Source: Defluviitaleaceae bacterium (GTDB taxonomy: Bacteria; Bacillota; Clostridia; Lachnospirales; WRAX01). From it: 64,000 bases of DNA. Positions within the stretch are counted from its first letter, which is position 1. Each line of letters starts with the position of its first letter. Made by a program: the position numbers and the translations under genes. The notes beneath the pieces are model-generated. The model searched no databases. It was not told the DNA's origin and was given only the letters and a program-made list of their open reading frames with translations. Shown here piece after piece: positions 4,790-11,092 of the stretch. The stretch lies in contig WRBK01000001.1 in NCBI GenBank assembly GCA_009784575.1, positions 1 through 64,000 on the forward strand, written 5' to 3'.

Positions 4790-5917
4790 TTACTTCTTAA
4801 ACTTATTAAAAAACCCCTTCTTGCCTTCCTCCACGCTTTCACCACCCGCCGCCGCAAACTGCCGCAACAGGTCTTTTTGTCCATCTGTCAAGCTTCTAGG
4901 CACAACCAATTTCAGCACAACAACCATATCGCCAGACCTATTGGGCGAATTGATATGCGGAATACCCTTGCCGCGCAATGTCACCATTGCATCGGGCTGG
5001 GTGCCAGCCGAAAGCCTGTGAAACTCCTCACCATATGGTGTATCTATGCTGATTTCGCCGCCGAGTGCGGCTTGCGTAAAGCTTATTTGCTTTTCCATAT
5101 AAAGGTCATTGCCGCGCCGCACATAGTTTGGGTGCGAGGATACCAAAATACGCACATACATATCACCCCGAGGCGCGCCAATGTCGCCCGCCTCGCCTTG
5201 CCCTGTGTAGCGTATGCTCTGCCCATTATCAATGCCTTTTGGCACACTAACGGCGATTTTTTTGCTTTTGTTCACTTTGCCGCCACCGCTACAGGTAGGG
5301 CATGGCTCTTTTATCACTTTGCCTGCCCCTCGGCATGCTTTACATGTTGTGGAGGTTTGCATGTAGCCAAGTGGGGTTTGCATAGTTTGCTGCACCTGTC
5401 CCGTGCCATTGCAAGGCTTGCAACTCTCAGGGGTCGTACCCGCTTTAGCACCCGTACCACGGCAATCATCGCAATTATCCTTTATATCAAACTCCAGCTC
5501 GCGCTCCACGCCAAAAATAGCATCTTCAAAGTCCACCTGCAAGGTAATCTCTACATCGCTACCCCTTGCAAGCCCACGCCGCGTACGCCGTCTGCCCCCA
5601 AAAACACCCATTTCATTGATAATATCAGCAAAGTCAGCAAAACTGCCAAAGCCACCGAACCCGCCGCCATGACCACTGCCGCCAAAGCCAGCCCCACTAG
5701 CCGCATGACCAAATTGGTCATACCGCGCTCGCTTTTCGGTATCAGAAAGCACGGTGTATGCCTCGTTTATCTCCTTAAACTTTGCTTCGGCTGTGGTATC
5801 ACCAGGGTTTGAATCAGGGTGATATTTTTTCACCGCTGCACGATATGCTTTTTTTAGCTCGTCGTCGGTAGCGCCCTTTGCCACGCCTAGTAGTTCGTAA
5901 TAATCTTGCTTTGCCAT
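4790..5917 (-). CDS. dnaJ: Chaperone DnaJ (Hsp40)
   Basis: DnaJ delivers unfolded clients to DnaK and stimulates its ATPase. The J domain at the N-terminus carries HPD (KYHPDSN). A Gly/Phe-rich linker follows, then four zinc motifs (CDDCRGTG, CKPCNGTG, CKACRGAG, CPTCSGGG) and the C-terminal client-binding domain. The 375 residues are typical of class I DnaJ. I choose the ATG at 5917 (MAKQDYYELLGV), preceded by AAGGGG. The longer frame to 6007 only overlaps the MNT-HEPN gene. It starts 5 bases after that gene's stop. Confidence 0.97.
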   Translation of the reverse strand: MAKQDYYELLGVAKGATDDELKKAYRAAVKKYHPDSNPGDTTAEAKFKEINEAYTVLSDTEKRARYDQFGHAASGAGFGGSGHGGGFGGFGSFADFADIINEMGVFGGRRRTRRGLARGSDVEITLQVDFEDAIFGVERELEFDIKDNCDDCRGTGAKAGTTPESCKPCNGTGQVQQTMQTPLGYMQTSTTCKACRGAGKVIKEPCPTCSGGGKVNKSKKIAVSVPKGIDNGQSIRYTGQGEAGDIGAPRGDMYVRILVSSHPNYVRRGNDLYMEKQISFTQAALGGEISIDTPYGEEFHRLSAGTQPDAMVTLRGKGIPHINSPNRSGDMVVVLKLVVPRSLTDGQKDLLRQFAAAGGESVEEGKKGFFNKFKK

Positions 5918-5922
5918 TTGGT

Positions 5923-6645
5923 TTAATCCCCTTCTTGTTGCAGTTGTTTCAGTGCATCTTCGCAATATTCTTGTAGTTCTGGTACATATTCTTGCGCTAT
6001 TTTCCACAAAGTTTCAATGTCAATTTCGTAATATTCATGAGCAATCACATTGCGCATTGCTTTAATTTTTGTCCATGGCATCTTCACAAATTTCGTCCTA
6101 AAGTCATCAGAGAGGCGGTTGGTATGTTCGCCGATTTGAAAGACACTCATAGAAACAGAATTTTTGTATGCAAAGTCATTACAAAATAATTCATAGTCGT
6201 TACCGAATCGCTCAATAAACTGAGGAATTTCTCTGCAATATTTCAAAACCCTTTTTAAAATTATCTCATCTCTTTGCAATTTGCTCAAAAATGATGACCT
6301 CCTCTGCTCTTCAGGCACAAACACTGGCTCTTCTAAAAAAACACCCGCCTCATATAAAAGCACATGGTCGCTAGAGATTCTTTTTATAAACTCCGAGTTG
6401 GGATTACTTATACTTACAACATCTACTTTTACGCCAAGTCTGTCCTGCATATCATTTTGAAAATCATTAGACATCCACTCGCCGTAAATATTGCCGCCCT
6501 CGCAACGCAAGTCAATATCGCTATCAGCAGTATTATCACCACGAGCATAAGAGCCGAAGAGGTAAACCCTCTCGACCCCATACTCTTTGGCTATAGGTTC
6601 AACAGCCTGTTTTATATCATATATGCTCAATTTGTTTTTGACCAT
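5923..6645 (-). CDS. Single-chain MNT nucleotidyltransferase-HEPN protein (fused toxin-antitoxin)
   Basis: Residues 1-105 form a minimal nucleotidyltransferase with GS at 31-32, DxD at 43-45 and a third Asp at 75, so the catalytic set is intact. Residues 120-240 form a HEPN domain ending in RNVIAHEY at 198-205, an exact RX4HXY motif. In MntA-HepT modules the HEPN protein is a toxic RNase. The nucleotidyltransferase antitoxin silences it by adding AMP to the Tyr of that motif. Those are normally two genes; here both halves lie in one open frame joined by a short linker. The gene begins 5 bases after dnaK and ends 5 bases before dnaJ, so it should be co-expressed with them. That the fusion is self-silencing is inference. 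Confidence 0.85.
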   Translation of the reverse strand: MVKNKLSIYDIKQAVEPIAKEYGVERVYLFGSYARGDNTADSDIDLRCEGGNIYGEWMSNDFQNDMQDRLGVKVDVVSISNPNSEFIKRISSDHVLLYEAGVFLEEPVFVPEEQRRSSFLSKLQRDEIILKRVLKYCREIPQFIERFGNDYELFCNDFAYKNSVSMSVFQIGEHTNRLSDDFRTKFVKMPWTKIKAMRNVIAHEYYEIDIETLWKIAQEYVPELQEYCEDALKQLQQEGD

Positions 6646-6650
6646 ATTTT

Positions 6651-8510
6651 CTACACTTCCTTATAATCACCCTCAACCGTATCCCCATCATTACCACTAG
6701 CATCGCCCTCATGATGATGCTCATGCCCATCATGTCCGCCAGCCTCACCAGCTGCCTGATACACCTTGCCCGCTATGCCCTGCATAATCTCCGCAAGATT
6801 GGCGATGTCAGATTTTAGGATATCGGCATCAGCCGCTGTCATGGTGTCTATATTCATTGCATCATTACTTGATTTTAGCTTGCCTAGTGCCGCTTCAAGG
6901 GATGCTTTGTCCTCATCCACAATCACTTCGGCATTATCCGCCATTAGCTTTTCTGTTTGGAAGATAAGGCTATCCGCCTCATTCTTCGTGTCCACGATTT
7001 CTTTGCGAGCCTTATCGGCTTCTTCAAATTGCTTTGCTTCGTCCACGGCCTTTTGTATGTCCTCATCGCTCATCTTAGAAGACGCCGTGATGGTGATTTT
7101 CTGCTCCTTACCTGTGCCTTGGTCTTTTGCGGTAACATTGACGATACCGTTTGCATCAATATCAAAAGAAACCTCAATTTTCGGCACACCGCGGGGTGCT
7201 GGTAAAATGCCGTCTAGCCTAAATTCGCCCAGCTTTTTATTATCCTTGGAGAATTGGCGTTCACCCTGCACAACCACGATATCCACGGCATTTTGATTAT
7301 CCGCCGCTGTGGAATAAACTTGCTTAGAATTTGCAGGGATAGCCGTATTGCGCTCAATAAGGCGCGATACCACGCCACCAAGGGTCTCAATACCCAAAGA
7401 AAGCGGAGTAACGTCAACCAGTATCAAATCTTTCAGCGATTCATCTCCGCTTAGCTTGCCCCCTTGAATAGCCGCGCCAATAGCCACACATTCATCGGGA
7501 TTTATACCCTTAAACGGCTCATGCCCCGTAATATTTTTAACAGCATCTTGGATGGCAGGGATACGTGTAGAGCCGCCCACCAAAAGTACCTTGCCAAGCT
7601 GCGCCGCAGAAATGCCCGCATCTTTCAAGGCATTATTAACAGGCTCTATGGTTTGCTCCACCAAATCCGCTGTTAGCTCATTAAATTTCGCGCGGGTTAG
7701 GCGCATGTCCATATGCTTTGGACCATCTTGATTCGCCGTAATAAACGGTATGTTAATATCTGTTTGCGTAACGGTAGAAAGTTCTTTTTTCGCCTTTTCT
7801 GCGGCTTCTTTAACGCGTTGCAGAGCCAGCTTGTCTTTGGCTAAATCTATACCCTCGGTATTTTTGAACTCTTTCACCAAAAAGTCGATGATGCGTTCAT
7901 CAAAGTCATCGCCGCCAAGGCGGTTAATACCGTTAGTGGAAAGCACCTCTACAACGCCATCTCCAATGTCAATAACAGAAACGTCAAATGTGCCGCCACC
8001 AAGGTCAAACACAAGGATTTTTTGTTCTTTTTCGTTGTCAAGCCCATAGGCGAGAGCCGCCGATGTCGGCTCATTGATGATGCGCTTAACATCAAAGCCA
8101 GCAATCTTGCCCGCATCCACAGTTGCTTGACGTTCATCATCCCCAAAATAAGCAGGAACAGTGATAACAGCCTCTGTTACAGTGCCGCCAAGATATGCCT
8201 CCGCATCCGCCTTTAGCTTTTGCAAAATCATAGCAGAAATTTCCTGCGGCGTATATGCCTTATCATCAACAGTTGTCTTTTGTTTCGTACCCATGGCACG
8301 TTTTATGGACATTACGGTGTTGTCTGGATTTGTGATGGCTTGGCGTTTTGCTGCCTCGCCTATGAGACGCTCGCCGCCCTTAGTAAAGCCCACGATGGAT
8401 GGCGTGGTGCGCCCGCCCTCGCTATTAGCGATAACAACGGGCTTGCCGCCCTCCATAACAGATACGCATGAGTTTGTAGTTCCTAAATCGATTCCAATAA
8501 TTTTAGACAT
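6651..8510 (-). CDS. dnaK: Chaperone DnaK (Hsp70)
   Basis: ATP-dependent foldase that works with DnaJ and GrpE. The ATPase domain opens with [12 protein letters not shown], and [10 protein letters not shown] and [11 protein letters not shown] are intact. The substrate-binding domain and helical lid follow, for 619 residues. The extreme C-terminus is unusual: it holds a His-rich stretch ([10 protein letters not shown]) and ends GDYKEV. The start is the first ATG, with AGGAGG upstream. Fourth chaperone-related cistron after hrcA and grpE, separated from grpE by two unrelated small genes. Confidence 0.98.
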
Positions 8511-8560: not shown

Positions 8561-8920
8561 TCATTGTTTATTCATTTTGATTTTCATTTCATTGCGAAGC
8601 TGCTCCTGATACAAATTATTGTTGCAAGTTTTTAATTTGTTTGCGGAAACATCTTTTGTTTCTTTCTTTAAGATGAATGCGGTATTCTTTTTGCCATGGC
8701 ACGAGATGCAACCAGGAATGATTTTTTCTCCAGACACACCTGAGTCAGAGTTTATCATATGCATACCATGCTCTGCCTTTTTGTTGCACCCTTCAACAGA
8801 ACAAATCAGAGGTTCTGTTCTTGAAAAATTGATGTAGTGATTCAACCATGAACCACAATCACATTCACGTTCCGATGTTCCAGACTTGTGTGTCCAATTT
8901 GTTAATACAGATATTGTCAT
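8561..8920 (-). CDS. Small Cys/His-rich protein, HNH/treble-clef-like
   Basis: 119 residues of unknown function. Cysteine pairs appear as CDCGSW, CSVEGC and GCISCHGKK, with histidines between. The segment KIIPGCISCHGKKN resembles the zinc-binding end of HNH-type treble-clef folds, but no full HNH catalytic set can be shown. The ATG follows GGGGGCG at suitable spacing. It lies between the NTF2-like gene and dnaK, in line with the heat-shock operon, so it is probably heat-inducible. A DNA- or RNA-binding role is possible but not demonstrated. Confidence 0.7.
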   Translation of the reverse strand: MTISVLTNWTHKSGTSERECDCGSWLNHYINFSRTEPLICSVEGCNKKAEHGMHMINSDSGVSGEKIIPGCISCHGKKNTAFILKKETKDVSANKLKTCNNNLYQEQLRNEMKIKMNKQ

Positions 8921-8935
8921 AATTCGCCCCCATGT

Positions 8936-9313
8936 TTAATCTTTGCCAACTGCCCTTCCTATCCGCATCTCCTTACGCCACTGCGGCGGCTCGCCTATAT
9001 CCGCAAAATACTCATCAAGCCTAACAATCTTACTGCCAGCATCAAGTGTCACAAAGGATGTTACATAAACTGCAAAGCCCTCTGTATCATATACTTTTGC
9101 CACAAAGATAGGCGTATTGCCAGATAGCTCCATGCGCACAACATCTGCCTGCCAGTCACCAGGATATTCGCAATTAGCGCGGATGTATTCATTGACATTA
9201 AAGCTCTCATTGCTATCATGCCAGTTTATAGTAGCATCGTCCGCGAAGAAATCCTTCAACACAGCGGCATCTTGTGCCGCAACGGCGGTCATAAATGCTC
9301 TTGCATCAAACAT
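8936..9313 (-). CDS. SnoaL/NTF2-like protein
   Basis: This 125-residue protein has the pattern of the NTF2-like superfamily: an N-terminal helix pair (FMTAVAAQDAAVLKDFFA), the segment DDATINWHDS, and long strands ending with VRLDEYFADIG. Members are small cone-shaped enzymes or ligand binders. No specific substrate can be inferred. Start ATG with AGGAGGG upstream. It begins 8 bases after grpE and is one of three non-chaperone genes inside the operon. Confidence 0.75.
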   Translation of the reverse strand: MFDARAFMTAVAAQDAAVLKDFFADDATINWHDSNESFNVNEYIRANCEYPGDWQADVVRMELSGNTPIFVAKVYDTEGFAVYVTSFVTLDAGSKIVRLDEYFADIGEPPQWRKEMRIGRAVGKD

Positions 9314-9321
9314 AAGCCCTC

Positions 9322-9957
9322 CTAATTCGCCACAACAACCACAGCATGACGAATGATAGTATCTTTGTACATATATCCGCCCTGCAACTCCTCCGCCACA
9401 ACGCCTTCGCCTAGGCTCTCGTCTTCAATATGCGACACAGCCGAATGATACTTTGTATCAAAAGTCTCACCAACTGACGGTATCTTTTGAATCCCAAGAT
9501 TCTCTAGCATAGTATGCAATTGGCTTTGTATCATCAACATGCCAGCGGCATATGAATTTGATTTATCCGCATTTTTCGTAGCCAATGCAAAATTATCAAT
9601 AATAGGCAAAAGTGCCGAAACTACCTCGCGCACGCCTTTATCAAATATCTGTCCCAGCTCTTTAGATGTGCGGTTTCGGTAATTCTCAAATTCGGCGGCT
9701 TGATGGCGTATTTTGTCCATATATAGCGCGTTTAGCTCTTTTGCGGCGGCTAGTTCTAGCAAAAGTCCATCATGCTCTTTAGGCTCGGCATCCGCATCGT
9801 GGTTATCTAAAATAAAGTCATCCACAATTTCGCCTTCTAGCCCATTGAAGCTGTTTTTCTGCGGCTTGTCACCATCCTCCACCTTATCAATCACAATATC
9901 ATCTATAATCTCGCCAATAATTTCTTCTTCCATATCTCTTCGCTTTTTTTTCGCCAT
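9322..9957 (-). CDS. grpE: Nucleotide exchange factor GrpE
   Basis: GrpE releases ADP from DnaK. The first 60 residues are acidic and low-complexity. A long coiled coil (ELAAAKELNALYMDKIRHQ region) follows, with FENYRNRTSKE and the C-terminal beta domain (PSVGETFDTKYH to GYMYKDTIIRHA). At 211 residues it is a little long because of the acidic head. ATG with GAGGGG upstream; 3 bases after the hrcA stop. Confidence 0.96.
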   Translation of the reverse strand: MAKKKRRDMEEEIIGEIIDDIVIDKVEDGDKPQKNSFNGLEGEIVDDFILDNHDADAEPKEHDGLLLELAAAKELNALYMDKIRHQAAEFENYRNRTSKELGQIFDKGVREVVSALLPIIDNFALATKNADKSNSYAAGMLMIQSQLHTMLENLGIQKIPSVGETFDTKYHSAVSHIEDESLGEGVVAEELQGGYMYKDTIIRHAVVVVAN

Positions 9958-9960
9958 TTT

Positions 9961-10989
9961 CTACCCCTCCTCTTCCTTGTGTTCAAAAGCCATATTGCGC
10001 AAAACCGAAACCACCTGCGAATAATCCATGCGCGTAGGTCCTATGATTGCAATATTGCCGAAAAAATGTTCATTGATGCGTATTTTTGCCTTTATAATGG
10101 AGCAATCTTGCAACATGGTATTTTCGTTTTCTGCACCTATCACAACCTGTATATCCTCGGAATTATCAGCTAAAAGCGTGATAAGTCCATCTTTTTCCTC
10201 CAAAGCACCTACAATGGCGCGAGCCTTTTCAAGATTTGCAAATTCTGGAAAATCTAATATGTTCTTTACGCCTGATGTGTATATCTGCACATTATCGGCA
10301 GATGACAAAGCCTCCGAAATAGCGGCTATCAGCGGCGCGGCAATGTCAGGGTTAATATGCAAGTCCATAAAACGCTGTTCGGTAACGCCGATAAATAGAT
10401 TATTTAGCTCATCTCCACTAGCTCCGCCCAAAATGCGCGTTAGCTCCGCCGAGATACGCGCGGCTGTGGTGAGTCCTACTCCGCTTGCCTCTGGCAAAGG
10501 TAAAACACGATTTTTCACAGTATTTTGGTCTGTGATGAGCATAAGAGCAAAGATGCCGTCATCTACAGGAACAAGCTGGATATGCTTGATTTTATGCCTT
10601 TGCGCCATAATGTCCGCGGCAACGGTCGTATAGTTTGTAAGCAAGGATATAGCGCGGGAAAGCTCATGCATCAGAAGGTCCACTTGGTTTAAATTTTGTA
10701 AAATAGATTGCTTGAGAAATTCTGCCTGCTGATTCGTTAGCCGTCTTTTCGGCATTACCTCATCCACATAAAGGCGATAACCCTTATCAGATGGCACGCG
10801 CCCAGAGGATGCATGAGGTGCTACGATATAGCCCATCTCTTCAAGGTCGCTCATTTCGTTGCGAATGGTAGCGGAGGACACGCCGAGGTCGTATTTTCTT
10901 GCTATTGTGCGAGAACCAATAGGCTCTGCTGATTCGATATAATCGTTAATTATGGCTTCTAAAATTTTTATTTTCCTGCGGTTAAGCAT
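9961..10989 (-). CDS. hrcA: Heat-inducible transcription repressor HrcA
   Basis: HrcA binds CIRCE and represses class I heat-shock genes until chaperone load rises. The N-terminal winged helix reads RKIKILEAIINDYIESAEPIGSR followed by SSATIRNEMSDLEE, matching the family, and the 342-residue length is normal. It is the first gene of the operon, 39 bases from the CIRCE element, so it represses itself. ATG with GGGGTGAT upstream. Confidence 0.97.
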   Translation of the reverse strand: MLNRRKIKILEAIINDYIESAEPIGSRTIARKYDLGVSSATIRNEMSDLEEMGYIVAPHASSGRVPSDKGYRLYVDEVMPKRRLTNQQAEFLKQSILQNLNQVDLLMHELSRAISLLTNYTTVAADIMAQRHKIKHIQLVPVDDGIFALMLITDQNTVKNRVLPLPEASGVGLTTAARISAELTRILGGASGDELNNLFIGVTEQRFMDLHINPDIAAPLIAAISEALSSADNVQIYTSGVKNILDFPEFANLEKARAIVGALEEKDGLITLLADNSEDIQVVIGAENENTMLQDCSIIKAKIRINEHFFGNIAIIGPTRMDYSQVVSVLRNMAFEHKEEEG

Positions 10990-11063: not shown

Positions 11064-11092
11064 AATATACCATGAATTGAAATATATGTCAA
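11064..11092 (-). promoter_or_regulatory. SigA-type promoter of the heat-shock operon
   Basis: On the minus strand TTGACA (11092-11087), a 17-base spacer and TATATT (11069-11064) lie directly upstream of CIRCE, so HrcA bound there would block transcription start. Confidence 0.85.

Follow-up and report, generated by a model that had tools for sequence, protein, structure and literature searches.

Type VII toxin-antitoxin (TA) modules of the MntA-HepT kind (Class I HEPN/MNT; Shewanella SO_3165/SO_3166) consist of two separate adjacent genes with MNT placed first, and the biochemistry of their RX4HXY/GSX10DXD pair has been established (PMC7641770). Fusion of the two halves into one chain has also been described. 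The DUF86 HEPN domain is 'occasionally fused to MNT' (Anantharaman 2013, PMC3710099) and a HEPN-MNT fusion has been cited on pAgK84 (Makarova 2009, PMC2701414), the HEPN domains in such fusions being typically devoid of the RNase residues and argued to be mostly domesticated (PMC3710099). Similarly, the aminoglycoside nucleotidyltransferases (ANT, AadA and kanamycin nucleotidyltransferase) carry a nucleotidyltransferase and a HEPN-like helical domain in one chain, and this domain has no RNase motif (PMC3710099). The HicAB fusion Slr1999 (PMC4963859) is another two-gene TA system found as one chain and is proposed to be self-regulated, whereas its toxin and antitoxin families are unrelated to MNT/HEPN. 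In SecB-associated toxin-antitoxin-chaperone (TAC) modules, the TA genes adjoin the gene of a dedicated SecB-like chaperone and the antitoxin bears a C-terminal addiction extension (PMC5105189, PMC6377645).

The locus studied here lies in a window of 64,000 nucleotides from a Defluviitaleaceae bacterium (contig WRBK01000001.1, positions 1 to 64,000). The first-pass annotation of this window had proposed a single-chain MNT-HEPN protein between dnaK and dnaJ with both active sites intact, and both claims were confirmed. The two domains are found within a single uninterrupted frame of 240 codons as assembled, with MNT first and HEPN second as in MntA-HepT modules. Pfam assigned Polbeta/NTP_transf_2 to residues 13-99 (E 6.4e-13 and 1.1e-9) and the HepT-like family PF01934 (DUF86) to residues 135-229 (E 1.6e-17), all over the gathering scores. 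The catalytic residues G31, S32, D43, D45, D75, R198, H203 and Y205 are all present and were invariant in the alignments with two-gene relatives. The ORF is confirmed as an MNT nucleotidyltransferase joined to a DUF86/HepT HEPN with intact catalytic residues. The GSX10DXD motif with its third Asp, the RX4HXY motif with the target Tyr and the families PF01909/PF18765 and PF01934 are shared with type VII modules. On the other hand, the two halves are not separate adjacent genes but one frame with a linker of ~20 amino acids and a possible internal hepT start, and they reside inside the dnaK operon rather than as a free-standing pair. The scores with the NCBIfam equivalog models (47 bits for MntA and 27.8 bits for HepT) are under the cut-off of 60, and the NCBIfam ANT models score far under their cut-off.

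The AlphaFold2 model (mean pLDDT 78.7) shows an alpha/beta domain, a low-confidence linker (pLDDT <50 for residues 109-118) and a helical bundle; it was built from a six-sequence alignment and, with a pTM of 0.55, is uninformative about domain packing. The top Foldseek matches are the MNT antitoxins 8xeo, 8xeh and 7bxo, several of the nearest structures come from HEPN-MNT complexes and chains of the complex 7ae9 were also returned, whereas the whole-chain matches to ANT-type enzymes are weak. The coordinates of all the features are collected in the table.

Table. Features of the fused MNT-HEPN gene and its operon (window coordinates; strand as read in the window).
Feature	Coordinates	Strand	Basis or remark
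Fused MNT-HEPN ORF	5923..6645	(-)	240 aa + stop, frame open
MNT (MntA-like) domain, residues 13-99	6349..6609	(-)	Pfam PF18765/PF01909; Foldseek
GSx10DxD motif, G31-D45; third Asp is D75	6511..6555	(-)	Residue check, alignment
Linker, residues 100-119, ~20 aa	6289..6348	(-)	Two-gene relatives have no linker
HepT/HEPN part, residues 120-240	5926..6288	(-)	Pfam PF01934 at 135-229
RX4HXY motif, R198-H203-Y205	6031..6054	(-)	Residue check, alignment
T7 homopolymer, coding strand	6335..6341	(-)	Length sets fused versus two genes
Vestigial canonical hepT ATG, +1 frame, reads MRRVFF then stop	6351..6353	(-)	Matches start position of two-gene hepT
Internal Shine-Dalgarno AGAGGAGGT	6297..6305	(-)	Few bases ahead of TTG120
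In-frame TTG, residue 120, candidate start of separate 121-aa HepT	6286..6288	(-)	Shine-Dalgarno, alignment
dnaJ	4790..5917	(-)	NCBIfam TIGR02349, equivalog above cut-off
dnaK	6651..8510	(-)	NCBIfam NF001413/TIGR02350, equivalog above cut-off
grpE	9322..9957	(-)	NCBIfam GrpE models, E 2.9e-30, under their cut-offs
hrcA	9961..10989	(-)	NCBIfam TIGR00331, equivalog above cut-off
Perfect CIRCE operator TTAGCACTC-N9-GAGTGCTAA	11029..11055	.	Sequence
Sigma-A-like promoter TTGACA-17-TATATT, extended -10	11064..11092	(-)	Consensus scan only

A single chain had been put forward as a new layout, and this was not supported. Besides the published fusions, single-frame MNT-HEPN ORFs with intact GSx10DxD and RX4HXY motifs were found on two plasmids, Delftia pUO1 (NC_005088; assigned to PF01934 by Pfam) and one of Aeromonas salmonicida (NZ_CP110653; also of PF01934 type), and in two genomes of the order, G027 (C10) and G053 (C35), both of PF08780 type. 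The layout is therefore rare and not new. These other single-chain ORFs have low identity to the window protein, the two order relatives belong to a different HEPN family and none of the plasmid copies was seen in a chaperone operon. Of the listed matches to the window protein from genomes of the order (295) and the phylum (399), only the window itself is a clean single frame of DUF86 type. Among the papers listed by the literature search, none described TA genes between dnaK and dnaJ. What is distinctive here is the location in the chaperone operon together with a junction that depends on one base, the single-chain layout itself being known. The two MNT-PF08780 chains of the order relatives (L026, L104) come from two families of the order and are possibly a conserved fused lineage. 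In the Aeromonas and Delftia plasmids (L096, L097) the HepT part is annotated as a gene of its own with an internal start, so that such fusions may be hidden in annotation.

The operon runs in the order hrcA, grpE, two small ORFs, dnaK, the fusion and dnaJ, and the fused ORF is separated from dnaK and from dnaJ by 5 bases each, as the first-pass annotation had described. Its proposal of control through HrcA also gained ground, as a perfect CIRCE operator lies directly downstream of the predicted vegetative promoter of the operon, which is the arrangement of an HrcA/CIRCE regulon. On the operon strand a single terminator-like match was obtained, a weak one within dnaK (8247-8233). In view of the perfect CIRCE, the promoter-like site and only this weak intra-dnaK match, the predicted control of the operon by HrcA is well founded in sequence. 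Transcription would be expected to increase with heat because the gene lies downstream of the CIRCE promoter; such a response would be a consequence of position and no proof of a chaperone-specific role.

Seven consecutive Ts decide the junction of the two halves. In those relatives examined that have two genes, mntA and hepT overlap, the ATG of hepT falling on the final codons of mntA. In the window, ~66 nt of extra sequence, with the T7 run within, separate the old hepT ATG from the position which aligns with Met1 of HepT. With T7 the frames are fused, with T8 a 111-aa MNT and a 143-aa HepT starting from the canonical ATG are obtained as overlapping genes, and with T6 the MNT stops at 103 aa and hepT is left on the TTG with a near-perfect Shine-Dalgarno. 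Hence, the fused state depends on one base. An origin of the fusion from the standard ATG overlap through one indel was rejected because the additional ~66 nt are also required. A programmed -1 frameshift at T TTT TTA was considered as well; the heptamer is in frame, but the downstream structure is no stronger than chance (z 0.22) and this candidate was not adopted. A census of homopolymers within the called ORFs of the window (A/T of at least 7, G/C of at least 6) gave 20 comparable runs inside other ORFs, all of which stay open. At the start of the contig (window 1-37) an A9 run is followed by a G20 run, a pattern typical of an artefact of two-colour sequencing, and the position of G20 so near to the end points to Illumina data of the two-colour kind. 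All the readings of junction, fusion and internal start come from one assembly.

A separate start for the HepT half may be present within the fused frame. The TTG at residue 120 aligns with Met1 of HepT from G004, a genome of another genus in the same family, and is preceded by a Shine-Dalgarno with a predicted pairing energy of -11.5 kcal/mol to the anti-Shine-Dalgarno, the median of the called starts being -6.15. An equally strong Shine-Dalgarno was found at only 3 of the 1043 internal in-frame starts of window genes, TTG120 included. Such a near-perfect signal with an in-frame TTG at the HepT start suggests that ribosomes may also initiate here and that some free HepT may be made besides the chain, a prediction drawn from a single sequence that has no close orthologue in which conservation could be judged. 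This start makes the strictly single-chain, in-cis reading of the first-pass annotation doubtful.

Related genomes had been named as the place to look for the same gene order, and the search gave a mixed answer. In G004, the gap contains a RelB-like gene, a PIN gene and then MntA and HepT, the last two as separate genes that overlap each other and immediately precede dnaJ. With identities of 47% (MntA) and 43% (HepT), they rank with the closest relatives of the fused halves. In G001, of the same genus as the window, a C-terminal HepT remnant lies just before dnaJ and retains conserved W, P, L and C positions, most of the gene being gone. The other family members have either different cargo in the gap (GNATs in G012, NUDIX, HIT and others in G006, ORFs of no recognised kind in G002, of the same genus, G007 and G015) or a short spacer only (G003, G008, G011 and G013). 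The two-gene pair and the remnant at the same gap make it probable that a two-gene module already occupied this place and gave rise to the fusion. The RelB-like antitoxin and PIN-domain toxin ahead of MntA-HepT in G004 form a mixed pair (L025; C71 ~6353-7023), GC-rich palindromic repeats (CCCCTCCACGGAGGGG) adjoin the HepT remnant in the gap of G001 (L063; C171), and two tandem MntA-HepT-like pairs were noted in G002 (L029; C57 4556-5732).

In the MNT tree the window groups with G004 and the phage-listed sequence MT840012 at 97/93; the HEPN tree gives no clear placement of window and G004, and only the MNT half speaks for their sister relation. Two ordinary MntA-HepT pairs elsewhere in the same genome, on C18 and C33, fall in a different clade from the fused MNT half, which contradicts a recent duplication from them. 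A phage origin found no support in the profile searches of viral contigs or in PHROG: the whole protein and the HEPN alignment found nothing in the viral contigs, the MNT alignment gave only three matches, all MNT relatives, and the fused protein had no PHROG match. Among GTDB genome contigs only one partial match was obtained, which covers 29 residues and comes from a Bacteroidetes MAG.

Beyond the anatomy, the operon with its operator and the two-gene form in G004, what follows is inferred. We give a probability of about one half to the reading that this is a type VII module within the HrcA/CIRCE chaperone operon, probably once of two genes, now in a single frame and possibly with two products. 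With the extra ~66 nt and the seven Ts, the MNT and HepT frames run together through the flexible linker. The MNT half would then add AMP to Tyr205 of the HEPN half and keep the RNase off, the transfer taking place within one chain or across a HEPN dimer. If the internal start is used as well, the two products would be the chain and the toxin, and the chain could serve as antitoxin in trans. That the fused and split states of such a CIRCE-controlled gene, with a self-modifying chain and free HepT, are switched by slippage at T7 seems unlikely.

It is possible, although we do not favour it, that this is an ordinary two-gene MntA-HepT pair in which the run is truly T8 or T6. Either the assembly would be wrong or the population would vary at this run, which is prone to slippage, and the fusion would be an artefact or one of its phases. 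Both of these lengths yield two genes as described above, and all other DUF86-type relatives among the matches listed from the 295 order and 399 phylum genomes are two ORFs or parts of them. However, the comparable homopolymers in other window ORFs do no damage, the data if two-colour Illumina would have few homopolymer errors and the ~66-nt insertion is present at any T count. Decay of the module, with fusion as a step in its loss, would fit the same-genus genomes, as G001 is left with a HepT remnant and G002 has a different ORF in the gap; we consider it improbable since neither domain has lost any invariant residue and no stop interrupts the 240 codons. Even less credence can be given to a domesticated nucleotidyltransferase in which HEPN is a substrate-binding domain without RNase role, as in the aminoglycoside enzymes. 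Most MNT-fused HEPN domains have been argued to be domesticated (Anantharaman 2013, PMC3710099), but these typically lack the RNase residues, whereas R198, H203 and Y205 are intact in the window protein.

The tie to the chaperones that had been proposed holds for operon position and HrcA, and dedicated coupling is doubtful. In its strongest form, the state of DnaK/DnaJ would control the folding of MNT and thereby the release of the RNase, with a logic similar to TAC modules. MntA-HepT in the dnaK-dnaJ gap of two genera with a remnant in a third genome, the CIRCE and the thermal-stress hypothesis for MNT-HEPN (PMC3710099) speak for it. Against it, the gap is permissive, as the GNATs, NUDIX, HIT, RelB/PIN and other ORFs of family members reveal, and four genomes have only short spacers there. 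Residence of a TA module in such a gap is by itself no evidence of chaperone coupling, which appears to be mainly positional, and we regard dedicated coupling as very unlikely. In contrast to TAC modules with their dedicated chaperone, the module described here sits in a housekeeping dnaK operon, and any dependency on the chaperones would be hypothetical.

As MNT-HEPN fusions have mostly been described with dead RNase sites (PMC3710099), the presence of an intact fusion here and of an unfused pair at the same locus in a relative makes the guarding of a toxin within its own chain testable. Moreover, a TA module under HrcA makes heat-linked translation arrest a testable question, and the dnaK-dnaJ gap across this family amounts to a set of natural insertions of different cargo into an essential stress operon. 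The grpE-dnaK gap also contains genes of its own: the two small ORFs (8561-8920 and 8936-9313, minus strand) code for a Cys-rich protein of 119 aa, to which Pfam gave no credible match, and for a SnoaL-like protein of 125 aa, which scored slightly below the gathering threshold, and G004 likewise has two small ORFs in this gap.
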